From a virus, in the IMG/VR virus record IMGVR_UViG_3300010211_000007, positions 1 to 20,234 of that record: a stretch of DNA of 20,234 nt; one strand, written 5' to 3'. Below, in pieces: positions 4,191-20,221 of the stretch. Both the position numbers and the translations under genes were made by a program. The stretch's first letter is position 1. Each line of letters begins with the position of its first letter. The notes under the pieces were generated by a model. It saw nothing but the letters and a program-made list of their open reading frames with translations. It was not told the origin of the DNA and searched no databases.

Positions 4191-5015
4191 GTGGAAGTAG
4201 ATGCAGGAGCAGTTGAAGGGGCTGCAGCAGGAACGGGTATCAGCCAGGATAATCCGGACCTGCTCACAGAGGGAGGCAATCCGGACGGTGCGGGAGCTGA
4301 CCCGGGGAAAGCAGGACAGGGGACAGATACAGGCACAGACCAGGGAGAAGGGGAGAAAACCTTTCCCACCTGGATGGGTCAGTTAACAGGCGACCTTCAG
4401 AAATCTGAAAGTCTAACCAAATTCAAGAATATTTCTGAACTTGGAAAGGCTTACGGAGAGCTTGAGGGAAGACTGGGTAAATCCATTACCATCCCTGGTG
4501 AAGATTCAACAGATGAAGAAAGGGCGAATTTCTTTGCCAAACTCGGAAGACCTGAGAATGCAGATGGATATGAACTTCAATTCGGGGAAAATATACCTGA
4601 ATACATGAAGAAAGCTTTCCAGGCTGATGAAAAGGAATTCCGGGAACTGATGTTCAAGTCCGGTTTCTCTGGAGATCAGGCTAAAGCAATGCACGGATAT
4701 ATCCAGGATAAGCTCCTGGACGGTCAGAAACTTGAAGCCATGTTCCGACAGAAGCAGTATAACGACGGTACGACAGCCCTGAAAGAGAGCTGGGGTGCTG
4801 ATTTCGGTAAGAACTTGAATATCAGCCAGATGGCCCTTCAGAGATTCGCGGACATTGAATCCATCCAGTTCCTCAAAGAGTCAGGTCTGGGTAATCATCC
4901 TGGTGTTATCAAGATGATGTACAAGATCGGCCAGGCTATAAGTGAGGACACGTTTGTGGATGGCGGTGAAGCCGGGGGAAAGTTTGATCCGGATAACCAT
5001 GTTTTATTCACATAG
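4191..5015 (+). CDS. Capsid scaffolding protein
   Basis: From the GTG at 4191 the product is 274 residues. GGGAGG (4175-4180) is 10 bases upstream; an in-frame TTG at 4173 would give a longer form but has no ribosome binding site. Residues 1 to about 60 are Gly/Ala/Asp/Glu-rich and probably disordered. Then come the signatures of podophage scaffolds: a Trp followed by Leu..Asp-Leu, SLTKFKNISELGKAYGELE, an IPGEDST segment, FFAKLGRPENADGYEL, and a charged helical C-terminus. Scaffolds template the capsid shell inside the prohead and leave on maturation. The location directly upstream of the major capsid gene fits. Assignment is firm for the role, from domain architecture and position. Confidence 0.82.
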   Translation: MEVDAGAVEGAAAGTGISQDNPDLLTEGGNPDGAGADPGKAGQGTDTGTDQGEGEKTFPTWMGQLTGDLQKSESLTKFKNISELGKAYGELEGRLGKSITIPGEDSTDEERANFFAKLGRPENADGYELQFGENIPEYMKKAFQADEKEFRELMFKSGFSGDQAKAMHGYIQDKLLDGQKLEAMFRQKQYNDGTTALKESWGADFGKNLNISQMALQRFADIESIQFLKESGLGNHPGVIKMMYKIGQAISEDTFVDGGEAGGKFDPDNHVLFT

Positions 5016-6407: not shown

Positions 6408-6689
6408 GTGGTTAAAGCAAAATGCGAGAAAACCTGTTTTGTTAAGGGAAAAATCTGGAATCCCGGTGATATAAGGTTTTTTAACAGCAAGGCAGATGTT
6501 GAAAATTGCTTCAAGTACGTTGAGGACGTCAAGGAAGACCCCTCAGATGATTCTGATGCAAAACCCTTTTCTCAGTGGACAAAAGACCAGTATCTGGAGA
6601 AAGCAAAAGAGAAAAAGATTGAAATCCCTGAAGATGTGAAAACCCGGGATCAGATCCGCGATTTTCTCAAGGACAAAATTGATCAGTAA
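6408..6689 (+). CDS. Small phage protein with C-terminal HeH/LEM-like domain
   Basis: The 93-residue product starts at GTG 6408 behind a G-rich AAGGGGGG site. Residues 1-40 (KAKCEKTCFVKGKIWNPGDIRFF...) look like the short beta unit common in small head-tail-region phage proteins, a basic strand followed by a 'G..Y/W..GD' turn. A flexible acidic linker (EDPSDDSDAK) leads to residues about 57-91, WTKDQYLEKAKEKKIEIPEDVKTRDQIRDFL, which fits the 'L...A.E..I.IP.....++.I...L' pattern of HeH/LEM/Rho-N-like helix-extended-helix domains. Those domains often bind DNA or RNA or act as adaptors. It is the last gene before a strong terminator. Specific function is unknown. Confidence 0.6.
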   Translation: MVKAKCEKTCFVKGKIWNPGDIRFFNSKADVENCFKYVEDVKEDPSDDSDAKPFSQWTKDQYLEKAKEKKIEIPEDVKTRDQIRDFLKDKIDQ

Positions 6690-9659: not shown

Positions 9660-10054
9660 CCCGGATTGAACTTGAACGGATTAACATCAACCGGCTGTTT
9701 AAAGAGTCATCCTTACCGGTGGTGACACTGGATTCGATGGCTTCCTGTGGGAAGCATATGCATATCATCGGTGGTTATATCGAAGGTAAGACAATATTCC
9801 ATACCGGGATTATTGATTATGGCCCCCAGTGTGGAGAAGTCTGGAGCCGGATAGAGGATATGAAGTATCGAATGTCCGCTGCCTCGAACATCCGGGATCT
9901 CATTGACCATATCGCATGCCATGACGGGTACAGGGAAATCGTTTCTTCAGTGCAGAAAGGCAATACTCAACTTAACAGGTGGTCCGAATGGCTCGGTATG
10001 GAGTACATAGGTTCAACCGAGTTTCACGATCATTTCAAATGGAGGGGTATCTAA
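9656..10054 (+). CDS. GNAT-like phage protein (gp13-position)
   Basis: The 132-residue protein sits between the nozzle and the gp14-like gene, the place of T7 gp13. It matches the general shape of GNAT-like phage proteins: 'GEVWSRIEDMKYRMSAASNIRDLIDHIACHDGY' and a final 'NRWSEWLGMEYIGSTEFHDHF', which is the 'RWaerlGFe.eG' ending of that fold. The acetyl-CoA loop (RxxGxG/A) is not visible, so it may be a degenerate fold with a structural role rather than an active acetyltransferase. It starts at ATG 9656 (overlapping TGA), with TGGAGA upstream, and its TAA shares a base with the next ATG. Function is inferred from position and fold resemblance. Confidence 0.55.
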   Translation: MTRIELERININRLFKESSLPVVTLDSMASCGKHMHIIGGYIEGKTIFHTGIIDYGPQCGEVWSRIEDMKYRMSAASNIRDLIDHIACHDGYREIVSSVQKGNTQLNRWSEWLGMEYIGSTEFHDHFKWRGI

Positions 10055-10938
10055 TGGGTGTAACAGCCGCAATTATAGGAGCCGCATCATTTGCTCTCAG
10101 TGTTTATGGGACCATTGAAGAACAAAAAAGGCAAGAACGCCAGAGTGAGTTCAACGAGCAGATGAATGAGTTGAACTATAAGGAAGGGATACAGAATATC
10201 ACGAATGCCCGGACATCCTTGGACACAAACTACACCCAAACCAAGGACACGATGGCGGAGCAGCTTACTCAAGCTCAGGAATCAACCGCCAGAAAAACAT
10301 CTCAGATTGAAACAGCAGCAGATAATCAAAGGCAATCCACTTCGGATGCGTATGCACTGCAGGTGGATCAGACTACACAGAATGCAGCCTATGCGAAAGA
10401 CACTATTGTTGATCACTCAAAAGCTGCCGCCCTAGCGGCGTCTCAGAAAAAAGGTGCTTCCGCTTCTTCCGGTGTGAAGGGCGGGACTGTCAACGATACC
10501 CAGGCTCTCCTGGAGCAGGACAATCAGAATTACCTTGATCAGTCCAGCCAGAAACTGAGTGATAACATTAAGAATTTCCAGACTCAATCTGATCTGTACT
10601 TCAACGATGCAGACGAGCAGAAGAGACTGGCTTATCAGACTGCTCAAGAAGCAAGGGAAGAGCTCTCTGATTATACCGAAAGATACGACACTCAGTTGAA
10701 GCAAATGGACGAGTCCTATAATCAGAAAACTGAGGAACTTAACCAAGCTGAAACCATTCTCACTGAGAAATACAAAGCTCAAGCAGCTTATGAAAGTGAC
10801 ATGTATTCCTATATGACTTCCGGTACCTGGCTCGATATCGTCGGGGCCGGACTCTCATCTTTCAGTTCCGGAATCTCAATGTACAACGCCACGAAGGACA
10901 TTGATACCAGTAATTGGTTCAAATGGGGTGGATCGTGA
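10054..10938 (+). CDS. Internal virion (ejection) protein, T7 gp14-like
   Basis: I place the start at ATG 10054 (294 residues), with GGAGGGG (10041-10047) 6 bases before it; the frame extends back to 9979 but no ribosome binding site serves that start. The N-terminus is a hydrophobic segment (VTAAIIGAASFALSVYGTI, residues 3-21), followed by a long Gln/Ala/Glu-rich coiled coil, a Gly/Ser patch (GASASSGVKGG) and a second glycine-rich hydrophobic segment near residues 257-279 (GTWLDIVGAGLSSFSSGISM). T7 gp14 inserts in the outer membrane during DNA ejection; two amphipathic or hydrophobic ends with a helical middle fit. There is no cysteine. Role inferred from architecture and gene order (nozzle, GNAT-like, this, two large core proteins). 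Confidence 0.65.
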   Translation: MGVTAAIIGAASFALSVYGTIEEQKRQERQSEFNEQMNELNYKEGIQNITNARTSLDTNYTQTKDTMAEQLTQAQESTARKTSQIETAADNQRQSTSDAYALQVDQTTQNAAYAKDTIVDHSKAAALAASQKKGASASSGVKGGTVNDTQALLEQDNQNYLDQSSQKLSDNIKNFQTQSDLYFNDADEQKRLAYQTAQEAREELSDYTERYDTQLKQMDESYNQKTEELNQAETILTEKYKAQAAYESDMYSYMTSGTWLDIVGAGLSSFSSGISMYNATKDIDTSNWFKWGGS

Positions 10939-12784: not shown

Positions 12785-15700
12785 ATGGATGTCCCAGGTG
12801 TAAGTACTTCGGATGATAACAAGAATAGTGTAACTGATGAGTTTAAGAACTGGTTTGAAATTGTACCTTCAATAGAGGAACAGAAAACCCCTAACTATAA
12901 TCCCCCTTATGCAGATCAGATGCCGCCAAAATCTCCGGTCCAGGCATCCCCTGATATGCCATGGTACAAGATGGCTCCTTCTACAGATCAGGTCAAAAGG
13001 GAGGAAAGTGAAAACCTCCGAAATTGGGTGATTCAACATTCCCAGAATCCAGAAGAAGAGCTTGCGAAGCTCCGATCCGCTCAGTACCTTGCTGCCAAAG
13101 CTGATATTGACCCCACATACGTATATAACAATTTCGAAGCCGTGACGAAGGATTATTACGGCCAGCCTATGTCAGGGATGAGCACCTTCCAGGCAATTAA
13201 CAACTCCTGGAAAACGGGCAAAATATACAGCCAACTTGGGGACCTCTATTATCAGCAGATCAACGGTGACAGCACAGAAGAAACACAGGCGAAGATTGAT
13301 AAACTTAAAAGCAGTCTTCCTCCCGTTGATCAGCAGAAAAGATGGATTCCAACTCAAGCTTTAAAAGCTGCAGCTGAAATGATCCCTATGTCCATAGACG
13401 GAGCAAAAGAGGCAACAGGCCAAGGACTTGTTTATGGCTTGGGGGGTGCGACAACTGCGGCTATTGGCGGCCAAGCGGGTCCTCAAGTTGCTTTCCCTGA
13501 AGAAATCGTCACCATTCCATCTGCATTTGCATCAATGTACCTAGTTGGACAGCTATCTGGTATGGCTGAATCTACATTCAAAAAAGAGTCGGGTCTGGCA
13601 TATATGGATATGCTTGAATATCAGGATACTGATGGAGCCAGGATTGATCCTGAAATAGCCAAGATGGCTTCAATTGGGATTGGTGCTCTTAATGCTGTAG
13701 TTGAGACAACTCAGTTCACAACGCTCCCCGGTGTTGACAATATTGTCAAGAAAGCCACAAGTCAAGCTGTCAAAAAGATAATTCAATCTGGCACTCTCCG
13801 GAAAGTAGCCTGGGAATTCTCAAAGGAGTATGGCGGATCTATTGCTTCAGAAACAGCGCAAGAGATGCTTCAGGAGATTTTCAGCATCACTGGAGAGGAG
13901 ATCTCAAAAGGATTATCTGGAGTAAGAGGAAGCAATACACAGGAAATTGTTGAACGGCTTATGGAAACTGCAAAACAGTCAGCTTTGGCGTTCTCAGTTA
14001 TGGGGCTCCCTGGATCTGTTATGAATGCGAATGTATCAAGCGCTGTCCGGCAGATGAGAAGTCCTGTCGGGATTATTAAAGTTGATGATACAACTGTTAT
14101 TCCCGGCCCCGATTCAAAACTTTTTAGAACCAGCACAACAAGTACTGCCGCGTCGATCCAGAGCATAGAGATTGCAGGGAACACTTCCAATGAAGGAATC
14201 AAACTCGCCCAGCAGCAATATGAAGCAGCCAAAGACGGTAAGGGGACGATACCTCCGGTAAAAGTCATCATGGGAGAAGATGGCACCTATCAGGCTGTAG
14301 ATAACGATATGCTGCAGGTGCTCTTGGAGAACGGTGAACAAGCTCTGGAAGTGGAGATTGTTGAACCGATACAGAATACTAAGATCACTGAATCTCTTTC
14401 GAAACCTAATTGGATGAAGAATTCCCAGGATTTTAATGAATGGAAATCCAGTTTCACCCAGAGAGAAGCCCAATTCAAAGAGGCCCAGACGATTGAAGAC
14501 TTCGAATACAACGTCAGAACTGCTTTCCCGGACATAGCCGACAGCGAAAGACAAGCTGTAGTTGCCATGGTTGAAGCCAGGGCGGCTGTAAATGGCATGG
14601 ATGTATCTGAGTATATTCAGAATACCTTTGACACCAAGGTGTTCACTACAGAGAAGATTCCGGGGCAGTCCTATAAAGCGGCTGCTGAATTCAAGGAATC
14701 CGGGAAAGCTTTGATCCACCTGACTGAGCTGTCTGACTTTTCATCATGGGTACATGAATACGGCCATATCATCAGGAAAGAGCTGCCCCAGTCAGATCTG
14801 CAGATCCTTCAGGATCATTATGGTGATCAGGACTGGACGACAGAATCAGAGGAATCATTTGTCAGAGACTTTGAGGACTATCTGCATAAAGGGAAAGCTC
14901 CCAGCGAAGAGCTGAGGACTCTATTTCAGAAAATAGCGGCAGGCCTGAAGAAAGTGTTTGACCGTATTGGCAGGACTCTGGATGAAACCAGGAAACTGTC
15001 AGCAGAAGTGACCGATGTTTTTGACCGTATTTTCACTCCCCAGGGTGATGTCAAAGCTGATTTATCACAAAAAATTCAGCAAGAGCAGCAAAATTGGTTT
15101 GTGGCACAGCCCACAGACCAATGGTTTGAGAAAACAGAGAACAGCCGTTCTATCCCTCTTGAGCAGATAGAGAGAAGAGAGGAGATTCAGGATACTGCTA
15201 AACTACAAAGAGCACAGGAGAACATTCATCAGGCCGAAGCTGGAACCGGCCCGAAGAGAGCTCCCGTAAAGGTTTTGGAAATTTCCAAAGGGAAATACAG
15301 GATTGTTGACGGAAATACAACCTGGCATGTTCTGAAAGATAAAAATGCCGCTGCTCTGGAAGCTGAAATTGTTGAGATGAAACAGCCGACTAGAGATCTT
15401 TCTGAGTTATATTCACTGGTAGAAGAATCCCTAGAAGATCTTGATTCGTTTACGGCTTTTTTTGCTGACAAGTTTAAAGGCTCTGTACTGCAAAGACCTG
15501 TTAACAAAGAAAGCGGGAAACGATTGAAAGCCAGGGACCGGGCTGCGAGGAAACTGGAAGAGGTTATTGGAGCTGAAAGGATTTTTGATCTTGCCGGTTC
15601 GACAGTTGTTTTCAAAGATATCACTACAATAAAAGAGGCTGTGAAGACAGCCCTGGAAGACCCCAGGGTGATCAGGTTGAAAGACCGTTATGATAAGCCC

Positions 15701-18700
15701 GCTCCCGGCGGATACATGGATGTTCTGATGAATATCAGGGCTAAGAACGGAGCTGTCATCGAAGTGCAGTTCAATACTCTGCAAATGGTGGATGCCAAGA
15801 AAAAAGCAGGGCATACACTGTATGAAGTTATAGATCAAACTGAAACGGCATTTAAGGAAGGGAAAATAAGTGATTCTGAAAAAGTAGCTGCTATAAAAGC
15901 AGCCGTTGATGCGAGTGAGAAGATCTATTCAGCAGCCAAGGCTGCCATTTTGGAAGACAACATTTTTTCAATGTCTTCTTTTGATATTTCTGAAGAGTTG
16001 GTCATTATCTCGGACAATTTGACAAGGTCACCAGCCGGAGAGAGTGTTCTATCCGGTAAAACTTTAAATAAGTTGAAAGAACTATCGATGGCGATAGGGA
16101 AGTCTTCCCAGTCTGCGAATTTTAATCCTTCTGAATCGATGGTCATGGGCTCTGACATAAATAAATCCTCCGACCATTTAAGTATACTTGATCAAGCAGA
16201 TGGGAGCAATATCATAGATCTGAAGGATCTGTTATTTCAGGGCATAGAACTATATGAAGACTCTGATGGTGTAATGTATAATAAACATGAGAAGGGTTTT
16301 AATTATGAAAGCAAAGAACTGTCCCGACAATTCCAGAAAACCTCAGAAGAACTTGGACTCCTCGAAGAGGGAGGAATCTTTTCTGATGACGGAGGAGATG
16401 AAGGACTGGGCGAAAAACGGCTATCCGGACGACCAACCGACAATTCCTTACTCCAGCAATGGAAAAAGCAAAAAAGAATAGATTTCACAAATCAAATATA
16501 TGAAGATACAACAACGCTGGCTGAAATGTTTTCAGTTTATAGAAACCCATTGAATGAGTATTTTCATATAATTTACACAAACGATAATAATCAGATCCTG
16601 GCACATAATGTCATGTCCTCTGGTATACCCGGGCGGACAATTGCTGTCGATTCTTCCAATCCATCCAAAAGCATGTTTAACCTAGAAGAAAGAATGAAGC
16701 GACTTAATGCCACAGGGTACTATTTACTTCATAACCATCCTTCAGGAAATGTCTCAGAATCTAATGAAGACTTGAGACTGACAGCAAACTATGCTCAGAA
16801 CGTCAAAGGGTTCATTGGTCATATCATTCTGAATCATGATCAGTTTGGATTTATTGGGAGAGGACTCCATGGTACTCAGCATAAATACAGCCCCAAAGTG
16901 GAGTATATTTCTCGGAATTTAACTGACAAGGGATTCACAAGCCCTCAAATGATAGCAGATTACACCAAGTCCATGATGCCTGATGATGGTAGAGAATTAC
17001 TTCTCTATCTGGATAATCAGAACAGAGTTGTCCTTGCTGAACCAGTAAAAAAAATAAATCACCAAACCGCATACCAAAAAATGAGGGAGATTGGCGCTTC
17101 AAATATGGCATTTGCGACCAGTTCAAGAGAATCATATGATTCTCTCTGGAAAGCTGATGTTGAACTCCAGAATTCTTCTGAACTCTCCATTAAACACTAT
17201 GATGTTTTTCTCGACATTCTGCTGATGGAATTTAATGATCAGGGTGAATTTACAAATGTTGAATCAGCTGTGGAATGGACCCAGAAGAGGCCCTCTGGTT
17301 GGCAGTCAGCTTTAATGTCACGGCGAAAAAGAAGAGGATATGTTTGGGAAGATGAAATTCTCTATCAAAACACAGAACATGAAGAAATAATTCGTAAGGC
17401 TATTGAGGAGTTTAAGCCGGTTCCTCAGGATGTCCTGGACGAATACGGAGATAGGGACTGGGCCATACGCGAGAACCGAAGAAGGGAAACTTTGAAGAAG
17501 TACTCCTGGCTGGTTGATATGGCTTTTGGAATGGACTCTCCTGATGAGTTCAAAGATTTTATACTGAGAATCGGATCAGCGGAAGAGATTGATGCTGCCC
17601 GGAAACTCGGCGGCGAAGGGGAAGAGAGGTTTTACAAAGAGATCTGGTCAAGGGCCAATCTCAAAACCAGAGAACAGGCAAATAACGAGTTTATCAAACG
17701 GTATGCCAATGAAACTGCCGTGACCGCCCTGGCCATCGAGGTGACGGCTAATCCGGGAGTATGGAAGGGGAAGGGGATTCCAGGGTCTATCTGGATGCTG
17801 GGGAACAGCTTCAAAGGGAGTACTAAGCAAAATGCCAGGGAACGTTTTGTCCAGGCTGCAATCACTTCGGTCAAGAATAATCCTCTTGCAATCCGCCAGG
17901 CGTTTGCCTCACAGAGCGGGGATCAAACAGATATTACTCAGCTGCAGTATGAAGAAGAAATTGAAAATGCTACTCCAGAAGAGGTTGTCATCGGCAGACT
18001 ATCAACAGAAGACCGACTGAAGGAAGCCGCCAAGGCAGACGATCCAAAGATCCGAGCCATGCTGCTTTCAGGAATTGGTACAGATTCGGAATCCCTTGTC
18101 CAGTTTGATCGGGAGATGCACCAGAGGATGGGTGTGTTGAAGTCTCAACACACTAAAGAGGTTGAGAAGCTGAAGAATCTTTTGAAAGCCAGTGACTCAA
18201 AGTTAGACGACTTTATCAGCAGCAGGGAAAGACTCTCTGATGCGTTGAAGAACGCTAAATCAGAGGCTGAAAAAGAAGCATATAAGAAGATCCAGGAATT
18301 CAAGGCTGAAATGATTGCCAAGCAGAAGCAGCAGAAAGAGGTCCAGGAAATCAAGGACAGGATGAGAAAGCTGGCAAAGAATATCCTCCGGAAACCTGCA
18401 GAGGATTGTCATTACTCATTTAAAGAAGAAATCAGGGAGATTCAGGACGGACTGGACGGAAGATTCAGAAGGCAGAAAACAGCCGAGGCCCTGAAGAAAC
18501 GCCGGGAATTTTACGAAGCAAACCCGGAAGTTAAAAAGTTGATTGATCCAGAAATCCTCAAAGTGATCAATCAGAAGCCTTTGAACGAATGGACTCTGAT
18601 TGAACTGGAGAATCTGAATAACAAGGTCAATAGGCTCCGCCAGATGGGAAAGGAGAAACAGCAGCGGATAGTTGAAGATCGCAAACAGAAGGTTCTGGAA

Positions 18701-20221
18701 CTGGCTTCAAAGATGGCTCTTGAAATTGGTAATGGAAAAATTGCCACAGTCCCCAAATATGCCACCAACACTGATGATTACAAGGAATGGAAGAAAACCG
18801 GAAAGGTCGACGCTGTTATGCTCAATACGCTCAGGCCGTCAAGAATCCTGAAGGATCTGGCCGGTGAAAATTCCGAGTTGGTAAAGTTCTTCTGGGAAAA
18901 GATGAATCAGCATACTGATGAATCAATACGCAGGAAACTGGAACGGATTGAAGCCGGGAAAAGGAAAATGGCTGAACTTGGTATTACTAAAAAGGAACTG
19001 GCCCAGAAAATCCTTATCCCTGGAGCAGAGGAAGACCCACAGTCTGTCAATGACGTTATCCATATGTATATCACCCGGAAGAATGAGAAGAACTGGAGAG
19101 CCATTGTTCATGGAGTCGGAGTCAAGAATCCCGGGAAATACATTCAGCATCTTACAGCCGAACAGATGGCTCTTGGTGACTTTATTGCCGCTGATTTTGA
19201 AGCACATCATGAAAGATATGCTGAAGCCTATGCCGTGGACAAGAATGATATCCTGGGGAAAGTTCCAGGGTATTTCCCAATGAAAAGGCAGTCTCTTTTG
19301 AATGAAGCCAGAAATGATGAGGTCATGAGGGACATGGGAACCTCCGCCGGTGTTATGGATGGTTATGCAAGTCGGAACAGTACTAAGAAGAGAATAGATA
19401 TCGGAGATGAGCACCAGGCGCCGATCCGTATGGGAGCATGGGATCTTTGGATGGAAGAAGTAGAAAAGCAGGAGCACTATATTGCCTCTGCCAGGTATAT
19501 CAAGGAGATGCACGGCATTTTAAAGAATCCAGCGTTTCAGGCGGCTCTTGTTGAAAAACATGGGCATGGAATAATTCAATGGTTTGAGAAGTACATCAAC
19601 GAATTCGCAAATCCGAATCTGTATAAATACTATGATGCAGTATCCAAGGTCTCCAGAGTGCTCAGGAACAATACGGCTCTGGCTTATCTTGCCTATAATA
19701 CTTTGACCATTGCCAAACAGGCTCCTTCCCTTGCTCTTTTTATGGGTAGAGTCGGGCCTCACAGATTGATGGCTGCCTCAGGGAAATTTATGAGCAACCC
19801 GGTGAAATGGTTGGATTTTGTGAATGAGCGAGATCCTCAGATGAAAGAAAGATCCATGGACCGGCTATTGGAGGAATTAAAGCTGGAACAGGAACACCCT
19901 GTTCAGAAAGCAATCAGTCAATTGGGCCAGATTGGAATGAAGCCTATTATGATGGTAGACAAGATGGCCACAACTATAGGATGGCTAGCTGTTTATGATG
20001 CCCATATTCTACAGGGTGAGGATGTTGCCATCAAGAAAGCCCAGGAGTCGATCCTTGAAACTCAGCCTGCAGCAAGAGCCAAGGATCTGGCCATGCTATA
20101 CAAATCAAACGAGGGATTCAACTGGTTCTTGATGTTTACCAACCAGATTAACCAGCAGTGGAACATTATGACCAGCGATATTCCCCGGGCAGTCCGTCAG
20201 GCACAGGTTAACCACATATAA
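12785..20221 (+). CDS. Giant ejected polyvalent protein (gp16 position) with peptidase, RelA/SpoT-like and JAB modules
   Basis: The frame encodes 2478 residues, nearly twice T7 gp16 (1318), and follows the gp15-like stop without a gap. N-terminal Gly/Ala-rich hydrophobic stretches (about 210-265) could touch membranes. A ParB-like 'PVKV...G.Y..VD' module is at 491-527, an HEYGH metallopeptidase motif at H657-H661 with downstream acidic ESEESF, and a second ParB-like copy at 827-864. A RelA/SpoT-like segment spans about 900-1020 (D935, GGYMDVLMNIR, E993 in VIEVQFNT). A RadC/JAB segment has HNHPSG with H1316, H1318, S1326 and D1329 in exact JAMM spacing. Long charged helices follow (about 1778-1890), then a C-terminal region like those of large phage polyvalent proteins. 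No transglycosylase motif is visible. It is probably ejected with DNA. Only one Cys (1875) is present. The end at 20221 may be premature. Module calls are motif-based; enzyme activity is unproven. Confidence 0.75.
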   Translation: MDVPGVSTSDDNKNSVTDEFKNWFEIVPSIEEQKTPNYNPPYADQMPPKSPVQASPDMPWYKMAPSTDQVKREESENLRNWVIQHSQNPEEELAKLRSAQYLAAKADIDPTYVYNNFEAVTKDYYGQPMSGMSTFQAINNSWKTGKIYSQLGDLYYQQINGDSTEETQAKIDKLKSSLPPVDQQKRWIPTQALKAAAEMIPMSIDGAKEATGQGLVYGLGGATTAAIGGQAGPQVAFPEEIVTIPSAFASMYLVGQLSGMAESTFKKESGLAYMDMLEYQDTDGARIDPEIAKMASIGIGALNAVVETTQFTTLPGVDNIVKKATSQAVKKIIQSGTLRKVAWEFSKEYGGSIASETAQEMLQEIFSITGEEISKGLSGVRGSNTQEIVERLMETAKQSALAFSVMGLPGSVMNANVSSAVRQMRSPVGIIKVDDTTVIPGPDSKLFRTSTTSTAASIQSIEIAGNTSNEGIKLAQQQYEAAKDGKGTIPPVKVIMGEDGTYQAVDNDMLQVLLENGEQALEVEIVEPIQNTKITESLSKPNWMKNSQDFNEWKSSFTQREAQFKEAQTIEDFEYNVRTAFPDIADSERQAVVAMVEARAAVNGMDVSEYIQNTFDTKVFTTEKIPGQSYKAAAEFKESGKALIHLTELSDFSSWVHEYGHIIRKELPQSDLQILQDHYGDQDWTTESEESFVRDFEDYLHKGKAPSEELRTLFQKIAAGLKKVFDRIGRTLDETRKLSAEVTDVFDRIFTPQGDVKADLSQKIQQEQQNWFVAQPTDQWFEKTENSRSIPLEQIERREEIQDTAKLQRAQENIHQAEAGTGPKRAPVKVLEISKGKYRIVDGNTTWHVLKDKNAAALEAEIVEMKQPTRDLSELYSLVEESLEDLDSFTAFFADKFKGSVLQRPVNKESGKRLKARDRAARKLEEVIGAERIFDLAGSTVVFKDITTIKEAVKTALEDPRVIRLKDRYDKPAPGGYMDVLMNIRAKNGAVIEVQFNTLQMVDAKKKAGHTLYEVIDQTETAFKEGKISDSEKVAAIKAAVDASEKIYSAAKAAILEDNIFSMSSFDISEELVIISDNLTRSPAGESVLSGKTLNKLKELSMAIGKSSQSANFNPSESMVMGSDINKSSDHLSILDQADGSNIIDLKDLLFQGIELYEDSDGVMYNKHEKGFNYESKELSRQFQKTSEELGLLEEGGIFSDDGGDEGLGEKRLSGRPTDNSLLQQWKKQKRIDFTNQIYEDTTTLAEMFSVYRNPLNEYFHIIYTNDNNQILAHNVMSSGIPGRTIAVDSSNPSKSMFNLEERMKRLNATGYYLLHNHPSGNVSESNEDLRLTANYAQNVKGFIGHIILNHDQFGFIGRGLHGTQHKYSPKVEYISRNLTDKGFTSPQMIADYTKSMMPDDGRELLLYLDNQNRVVLAEPVKKINHQTAYQKMREIGASNMAFATSSRESYDSLWKADVELQNSSELSIKHYDVFLDILLMEFNDQGEFTNVESAVEWTQKRPSGWQSALMSRRKRRGYVWEDEILYQNTEHEEIIRKAIEEFKPVPQDVLDEYGDRDWAIRENRRRETLKKYSWLVDMAFGMDSPDEFKDFILRIGSAEEIDAARKLGGEGEERFYKEIWSRANLKTREQANNEFIKRYANETAVTALAIEVTANPGVWKGKGIPGSIWMLGNSFKGSTKQNARERFVQAAITSVKNNPLAIRQAFASQSGDQTDITQLQYEEEIENATPEEVVIGRLSTEDRLKEAAKADDPKIRAMLLSGIGTDSESLVQFDREMHQRMGVLKSQHTKEVEKLKNLLKASDSKLDDFISSRERLSDALKNAKSEAEKEAYKKIQEFKAEMIAKQKQQKEVQEIKDRMRKLAKNILRKPAEDCHYSFKEEIREIQDGLDGRFRRQKTAEALKKRREFYEANPEVKKLIDPEILKVINQKPLNEWTLIELENLNNKVNRLRQMGKEKQQRIVEDRKQKVLELASKMALEIGNGKIATVPKYATNTDDYKEWKKTGKVDAVMLNTLRPSRILKDLAGENSELVKFFWEKMNQHTDESIRRKLERIEAGKRKMAELGITKKELAQKILIPGAEEDPQSVNDVIHMYITRKNEKNWRAIVHGVGVKNPGKYIQHLTAEQMALGDFIAADFEAHHERYAEAYAVDKNDILGKVPGYFPMKRQSLLNEARNDEVMRDMGTSAGVMDGYASRNSTKKRIDIGDEHQAPIRMGAWDLWMEEVEKQEHYIASARYIKEMHGILKNPAFQAALVEKHGHGIIQWFEKYINEFANPNLYKYYDAVSKVSRVLRNNTALAYLAYNTLTIAKQAPSLALFMGRVGPHRLMAASGKFMSNPVKWLDFVNERDPQMKERSMDRLLEELKLEQEHPVQKAISQLGQIGMKPIMMVDKMATTIGWLAVYDAHILQGEDVAIKKAQESILETQPAARAKDLAMLYKSNEGFNWFLMFTNQINQQWNIMTSDIPRAVRQAQVNHI

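Follow-up and report, generated by a model that had tools for sequence, protein, structure and literature searches.

A RelA/SpoT-type SYNTH domain within a predicted podoviral ejection protein

RelA/SpoT-type synthetase (SYNTH) domains in phage polyvalent proteins and in MuF fusions have already been published (Iyer et al. 2017, PMC5512222), and the Apk2 MuF toxins of temperate phages, in which the domain sits on a virion protein, produce (p)ppApp (PMC12226406). In Apk1/Tas1 the carrier is a secreted effector. Outside phages, the exported synthetases and RelV (SaEAS, VpEAS and VcRelV; PMC12691689) include proteins of RelV/VpEAS type; in the cytoplasm these synthesize (p)ppGpp and arrest growth (PMC12691689). 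Here we describe a complete SYNTH domain of the RelA/SpoT type in IMG/VR virus record IMGVR_UViG_3300010211_000007, a linear fragment of 20,234 bases that was analyzed over its whole length (the window). The domain spans residues ~862-1058 of a 2478-amino-acid protein, which is predicted to be an ejection protein of a short-tailed phage.

As in the polyvalent RelA/SpoT proteins of the 2017 survey (PMC5512222, Fig. 5C), the domain is part of a large multi-domain phage protein. Two uncultured Caudovirales proteins in BFVD (A0A6J5KIV2 and A0A6J5Q8J2) have the same fold, with 27% identity to the domain. Because of this survey, the assayed Apk2 (PMC12226406) and the BFVD entries, we assign the domain to an already known kind, and what it adds are small differences: its place in a podoviral ejection protein, its combination with RadC and an arginine change. 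Unlike the surveyed polyvalent proteins, the 2478-residue protein has a podoviral gp16-like position and lacks the arginine three residues after the catalytic aspartate (D+3); it also combines SYNTH with RadC, a domain that the survey lists for no polyvalent proteins other than those of conjugative elements (PMC5512222). The exported synthetases and RelV are the closest sequence group outside phages, sharing the GY-x-D loop (in Vibrionaceae members), the E-x-Q motif and the fold, whereas the domain described here is internal, has no signal peptide and has Gly in place of the D+3 Arg. In contrast to Apk2 and Apk1/Tas1, it is not C-terminal, the RYT motif at D+3 to D+5 is GST, and neither MuF nor PAAR nor any other secretion-targeting domain was found by Pfam in the 2478-residue protein; immunity genes such as theirs were not recognized in the window. 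The long RelA/SpoT homologues (RSH; RelA, SpoT and RelSeq) have the SYNTH fold and the Mg2+-binding pair (RelSeq D264/E323) in common with the domain, but the phage protein lacks their hydrolase, TGS and ACT domains.

The original prediction had proposed a RelA/SpoT-like segment from short peptides, all of which are present, in frame and numbered as proposed, in the open reading frame (ORF) at 12785-20221, with D935 at nt 15587-15589 and E993 at nt 15761-15763. When the segment alone was compared with Pfam, PF04607 (RelA_SpoT) was matched with 30 bits, above its cut-off of 27 (E = 7e-7). The scan of the whole protein reported RadC, a weak DUF6586 and nothing else, and a six-frame family search of the virus record did not report the RelA/SpoT family. 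Because the Pfam support by itself was marginal, a family profile was built. A tblastn search with the segment led to a Photobacterium protein (E = 4e-4), and iteration through genome and viral collections yielded 33 Vibrionaceae or cyanobacterial loci, together with loci from phages. A leave-one-out profile of 32 aligned relatives, with the source protein excluded, scored 102 bits at residues 863-1057, and still 97 bits when the nearest relative was also removed. The best of 1000 shuffles of the same residues reached 7.9 bits, and chance resemblance was rejected on this basis. The profile evidence indicates that the segment is homologous to the RelA/SpoT SYNTH superfamily, as had been proposed. 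The interval first given for it, 15482-15844, does contain SYNTH sequence, although the real domain is wider, at about nt 15368-15958.

The profile and fold comparisons that had been suggested as a check both gave the SYNTH fold of alarmone synthetases. From the 33-row family alignment, AlphaFold2 produced a domain model with a predicted local distance difference test score (pLDDT) of 93.4 and a predicted template modeling score (pTM) of 0.88. The top fold matches of this model were alarmone synthetases throughout: BsRelP (6fgk, Z = 16.4), RelQ (5ded, 16.2), Tas1 (6ox6, 15.8), CapRel (12.9) and SaEAS (8vx3, 12.8). Rel/RelA entries scored 8-11, RelSeq 8.7 and FaRel2 7.3; unrelated long-helix matches began at Z ~8.5 and spanned only ~65 residues. 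The best PDB profile match was Tas1 (E = 7e-22), and BFVD proteins of uncultured phages annotated as RelA/SpoT, DdrB-like or ART-PolyVal matched the model with E values of about 1e-8 to 1e-11. The model thus predicts a SYNTH fold within the 2478-residue protein. A chance likeness, or a Pol-beta-type nucleotidyltransferase outside the RelA/SpoT group, would accord with the silence of the full-length Pfam scan on RelA_SpoT and with the appearance of DNA polymerase mu and terminal deoxynucleotidyltransferase low in the fold list. Their Z was only about 7, and an enzyme of that type was rejected. In view of the leave-one-out score, the ten invariant residues described below and the uniform top fold matches, we regard this explanation as exceedingly improbable.

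A maximum-likelihood tree separated the long RSH proteins and small alarmone synthetases from the domains borne by RelV/EAS, MuF, portal and polyvalent proteins, with support of 100/98. The domain fell on the latter side, with no firm placement within that group, and by this tree it groups with RelV/exported synthetases and MuF- or portal-fused phage relatives rather than with long RelA/SpoT. The Vibrionaceae relatives look like the RelV/VpEAS type, an assignment based on their taxon and size, on a hydrophobic stretch at the N-terminus and on the motif. Carriers among the phage relatives include a MuF-like protein (L042) and a protein in which a ddrB-ParB domain is the companion (L052).

The alignment of the 33 family sequences contains ten invariant columns, all of which are kept in the domain (K915, K923, D935, G976, Y977, D979, E993, Q995, Y1013 and Y1048); H1010 is likewise kept. 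D935 and E993 had been proposed as the catalytic pair, and profile alignments with Tas1, YwaC/RelP, SaEAS and RelSeq bear this out, placing the two residues on the columns of the catalytic Asp and Glu; these are alignment columns and not atomic distances. In RelP (D107/E174) and RelSeq (D264/E323) the corresponding residues are Mg2+ ligands (PMC5794853, PMC7983052). The acceptor loop had been described as a usual GYRSVH that has become GYMDVL. Within the subgroup, however, the Asp of GY-x-D does not vary, and GYMDVL corresponds to the GY-R-D that is usual there, not to a decayed GYRSVH; R978M is its one unusual feature. The residues found at position 978 in Tas1, SaEAS and RelSeq are S, K and Q.

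The D+3 position, which the original prediction overlooked, holds the real anomaly, one more serious than the acceptor-loop change. The ATP adenine is sandwiched by two arginines, R78 and R112 in RelP or R241 and R269 in RelSeq (PMC5794853, PMC7983052), and the second of each pair lies at D+5; SaEAS R124 and Apk1 R330 are ATP-site arginines at D+3 (PMC12691689). The domain has R913 at the first of these positions, two residues before K915, and G938 and T940 at D+3 and D+5. R913 is found in this domain alone among the 33 family sequences, and SaEAS has an Arg at the same position whereas RelV-type sequences do not. Tas1 and RelV-type sequences likewise show one stacking Arg in the alignments, so two are not strictly defining of the superfamily. 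Point mutants of RelV, in which K107, D129, R132 and E188 are reportedly essential, were not counted as evidence. The gain of R913 together with the loss of the D+3 Arg could represent either an exchange of stacking arginines or partial decay.

One alternative is a pseudo-enzyme that retains the SYNTH fold but has lost catalysis or catalyzes very weakly, and that serves the ejection protein by binding nucleotides or as a spacer. A D+3 Arg is present in 31 of the 32 relatives and an Arg at 978 in all of them, the branch of the domain is long, and the related polyvalent protein L048 has Ala at D+3 and no Arg at the 913 position. Nevertheless, the domain retains the two Mg2+ ligands and every other invariant residue, a pattern not expected of a decaying site, R913 occupies an alternative adenine-stacking position, and the zincin and RadC motifs of the same protein are intact. 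We therefore consider a pseudo-enzyme rather unlikely, though a serious alternative. A pyrophosphokinase acting on another acceptor, such as the tRNA 3′-CCA end (as in FaRel2 and CapRel) or another nucleotide, would block translation instead of raising alarmone levels. Its GYMD loop has no His or Asn four residues past the Tyr, unlike the canonical GYxSxH and the GxN of Apk2 (PMC12226406), and the model also matches the folds of CapRel and FaRel2. However, the GY-x-D loop is common to (p)ppGpp makers of RelV/VpEAS type (PMC12691689) and the RelP and Tas1 matches are higher, making a different acceptor distinctly unlikely.

Given the homology, the fold, the kept catalytic residues and a backbone common to other ejection proteins, we consider it modestly probable that the SYNTH domain is an alarmone-type pyrophosphokinase carried as virion-delivered, interchangeable cargo of a podovirus ejection protein; catalysis, acceptor, injection and self-cleavage are predicted parts of this proposal. 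The enzymatic assignment draws on the profile score, the fold Z values, the ten invariant columns, the RelV/VpEAS-type and Apk2 relatives and three related phage loci with an HD-type hydrolase gene after the SYNTH gene. Mg2+ would be held by D935 and E993, ATP by K915, K923 and R913, and the acceptor nucleotide by Y977 and the GY-x-D loop; pyrophosphate would pass from ATP to the 3′-OH of a purine nucleotide, yielding (p)ppGpp or (p)ppApp. The 2478-residue protein would enter the cell together with the DNA and be cut by its own zincin. The SYNTH domain so freed may slow host transcription and translation or drain host ATP and GTP early in infection. A more specific version, in which an active domain with R913 substituting for the D+3 Arg and with an altered acceptor loop has changed specificity and remodels host nucleotide signaling or tRNA at the start of infection, is speculative and on balance unlikely.

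Several results weigh against an alarmone-type enzyme. Arginine is absent from both D+3 and D+5, leaving the domain short of one of the two adenine-stacking arginines, M978 is unique to this domain, and its branch length is 2.56. Within the 20,234-base fragment, neither an HD hydrolase nor any other immunity gene was recognized; the fragment ends 13 bases past the 2478-residue ORF, with any genes further downstream lying outside it. Close relatives of the fragment were found neither in phages, where one search gave no match and another gave weak hits alone, nor in a scan of viral contigs or a near DNA search; a DNA pattern for EVQ...M..AK...GH..YE had no match in the viral contigs. If the domain is active, an alarmone-type enzyme would be delivered by a podovirus ejection apparatus and not by a temperate-phage MuF toxin, and the system could be used to ask directly whether phages control host (p)ppGpp or (p)ppApp levels ahead of all phage gene expression. 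An inactive domain would still provide natural variants of the ATP site and show that a SYNTH module passes from one giant phage protein to another, unrelated one.

The genes of the fragment are, by their family matches, a podovirus set (Table 1). The tail genes are followed by two genes with weak matches to internal virion proteins, one of them T7 gp14-like, and a 599-amino-acid gene lies between the gp14-like gene and the 2478-residue ORF. This order resembles T7 gp14-15-16 and is comparable in the podoviruses vir555 and LS06, where the giant-protein gene comes directly after a gene for an internal virion protein and one of ~600 amino acids. Residues 27-424 at the N-terminus, 586-819 (zincin) and 1626-2461 at the C-terminus of the 2478-residue protein match the giant proteins of vir555, ctEw122 and LS06. 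With zincin, SYNTH and RadC in one ORF after portal, capsid, tail and gp14-like genes, it is predicted to be a polyvalent ejection protein in a T7-gp16-like position, and its synteny with ejection-protein genes makes it a candidate for packaging in the virion and for delivery along with the DNA. The SYNTH profile had no significant match in the giant proteins of vir555, ctEw122 and LS06, which argues that the interior (SYNTH and RadC) is variable cargo on a conserved ejection-protein frame. The host of vir555 is given as Methanomicrobiales; this virus, assigned to archaeal methanogens, has a relative of the giant protein in the corresponding gene position.

Residues 776-1049 form a two-part module that recurs in a 3891-amino-acid phage protein (L048/L049; IMG/VR 3300017989_000161 and 3300029267_001809), with 32% identity over 289 columns (E = 2e-34) and likewise without the D+3 Arg. 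Because the rest of that protein is unrelated (InPase by Pfam; helicase- and methylase-like parts by eye), this sharing suggests that the module travels as one unit between giant phage proteins. L048/L049 were the only additional members found, and 398 Pseudomonadota genomes gave matches to the SYNTH half and none to the whole module. The KYRIVDGNTT motif in the first part is ParB-like by eye alone. A ParB identity of residues ~776-870 is unconfirmed: Pfam was negative, and a comparison with the true ddrB-ParB domain found in L052 showed no similarity. The AlphaFold model of this region, from a two-row alignment, was poor (pLDDT 52).

Table 1. Features of the 20,234-base fragment, in nucleotide positions of the window
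Feature	Position	Strand	Basis or remark
Large terminase			phrog_38
Head-tail_con portal			PF12236
Protease-like gene			phrog_458
GP7-type capsid protein			PF20911
Tail proteins			phrog_394 twice, phrog_376
T7 gp14-like internal virion protein gene	9979..10938	+	PF24072 T7_gp14, E 0.0011 (below Pfam cut-off); phrog_805 internal virion protein, E 7e-4
2478-aa ORF, predicted internal virion/ejection polyvalent protein	12785..20221	+	Final gene in the window
HEYGH zincin metallopeptidase motif, residues 657-661	14753..14767	+	Upstream of SYNTH in the same protein; region conserved in other phages
Two-part module, residues 776-1049	15110..15931	+	Small region with ParB-like DGN motif, then SYNTH; common to L048
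RelA/SpoT-type SYNTH domain, residues 862-1058	15368..15958	+	Profiles, model pLDDT 93.4, fold matches
R913-L914-K915	15521..15529	+	K915 invariant; R913 at adenine-stacking RelP R78/RelSeq R241 position
K923	15551..15553	+	Invariant; equivalent of RelP K88, phosphate contact (PMC5794853)
D935, predicted Mg2+ ligand	15587..15589	+	Matches RelP D107, RelSeq D264, SaEAS D121; invariant
G938	15596..15598	+	Arg in 31/32 relatives; SaEAS R124, Apk1 R330 position (PMC12691689)
G976-Y977-M978-D979, acceptor-loop motif	15710..15721	+	G, Y and D invariant; M978 unique, Arg in 32/32 relatives
E993-V994-Q995, second predicted Mg2+ ligand and invariant Gln	15761..15769	+	RelP E174, RelSeq E323, SaEAS E182/Q184
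RadC/JAB domain, residues 1253-1341, HNH..D motif at 1316	16541..16807	+	PF04002, E 3.7e-11 (whole protein), 5.9e-13 (protein fragment)

Other arrangements were observed among the relatives. In L053 (2491-4866), L055 (3417-5792) and L040 (2438-6967), SYNTH lies on the C-terminal side of a Phage_portal_3 portal, a non-MuF carrier, and L054 is also portal-fused. In three loci, Bordetella phage PHB04 (L081, 4089-6354), L045 (9023-11458) and L044 (from 878), an HD-type alarmone-hydrolase gene stands just downstream of the SYNTH gene, which is itself near or after the portal gene, and the two look like a toxin/immunity pair; the HD-type gene of PHB04 is annotated '(p)ppGpp synthetase/hydrolase'. 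The published counterpart of this order is the Apk2 toxin/Aph1 immunity pair (PMC12226406). Several Photobacterium genomes (L007-L020) contain two tandem paralogous RelV-like synthetase genes, for example at 4895 and 5758 in L012. A plasmid of Deinococcus sp. QL22 (L004, 3384-4632) has a small solo SYNTH-like ORF with DLLGGT and ELK replacing DLxR and EVQ; it adjoins a helix-turn-helix gene and may be part of a toxin-antitoxin pair or a decayed copy. In the window itself, a small ORF between the capsid and tail genes (6408-6689) matches endonuclease VII (phrog_3281, E = 2e-6).

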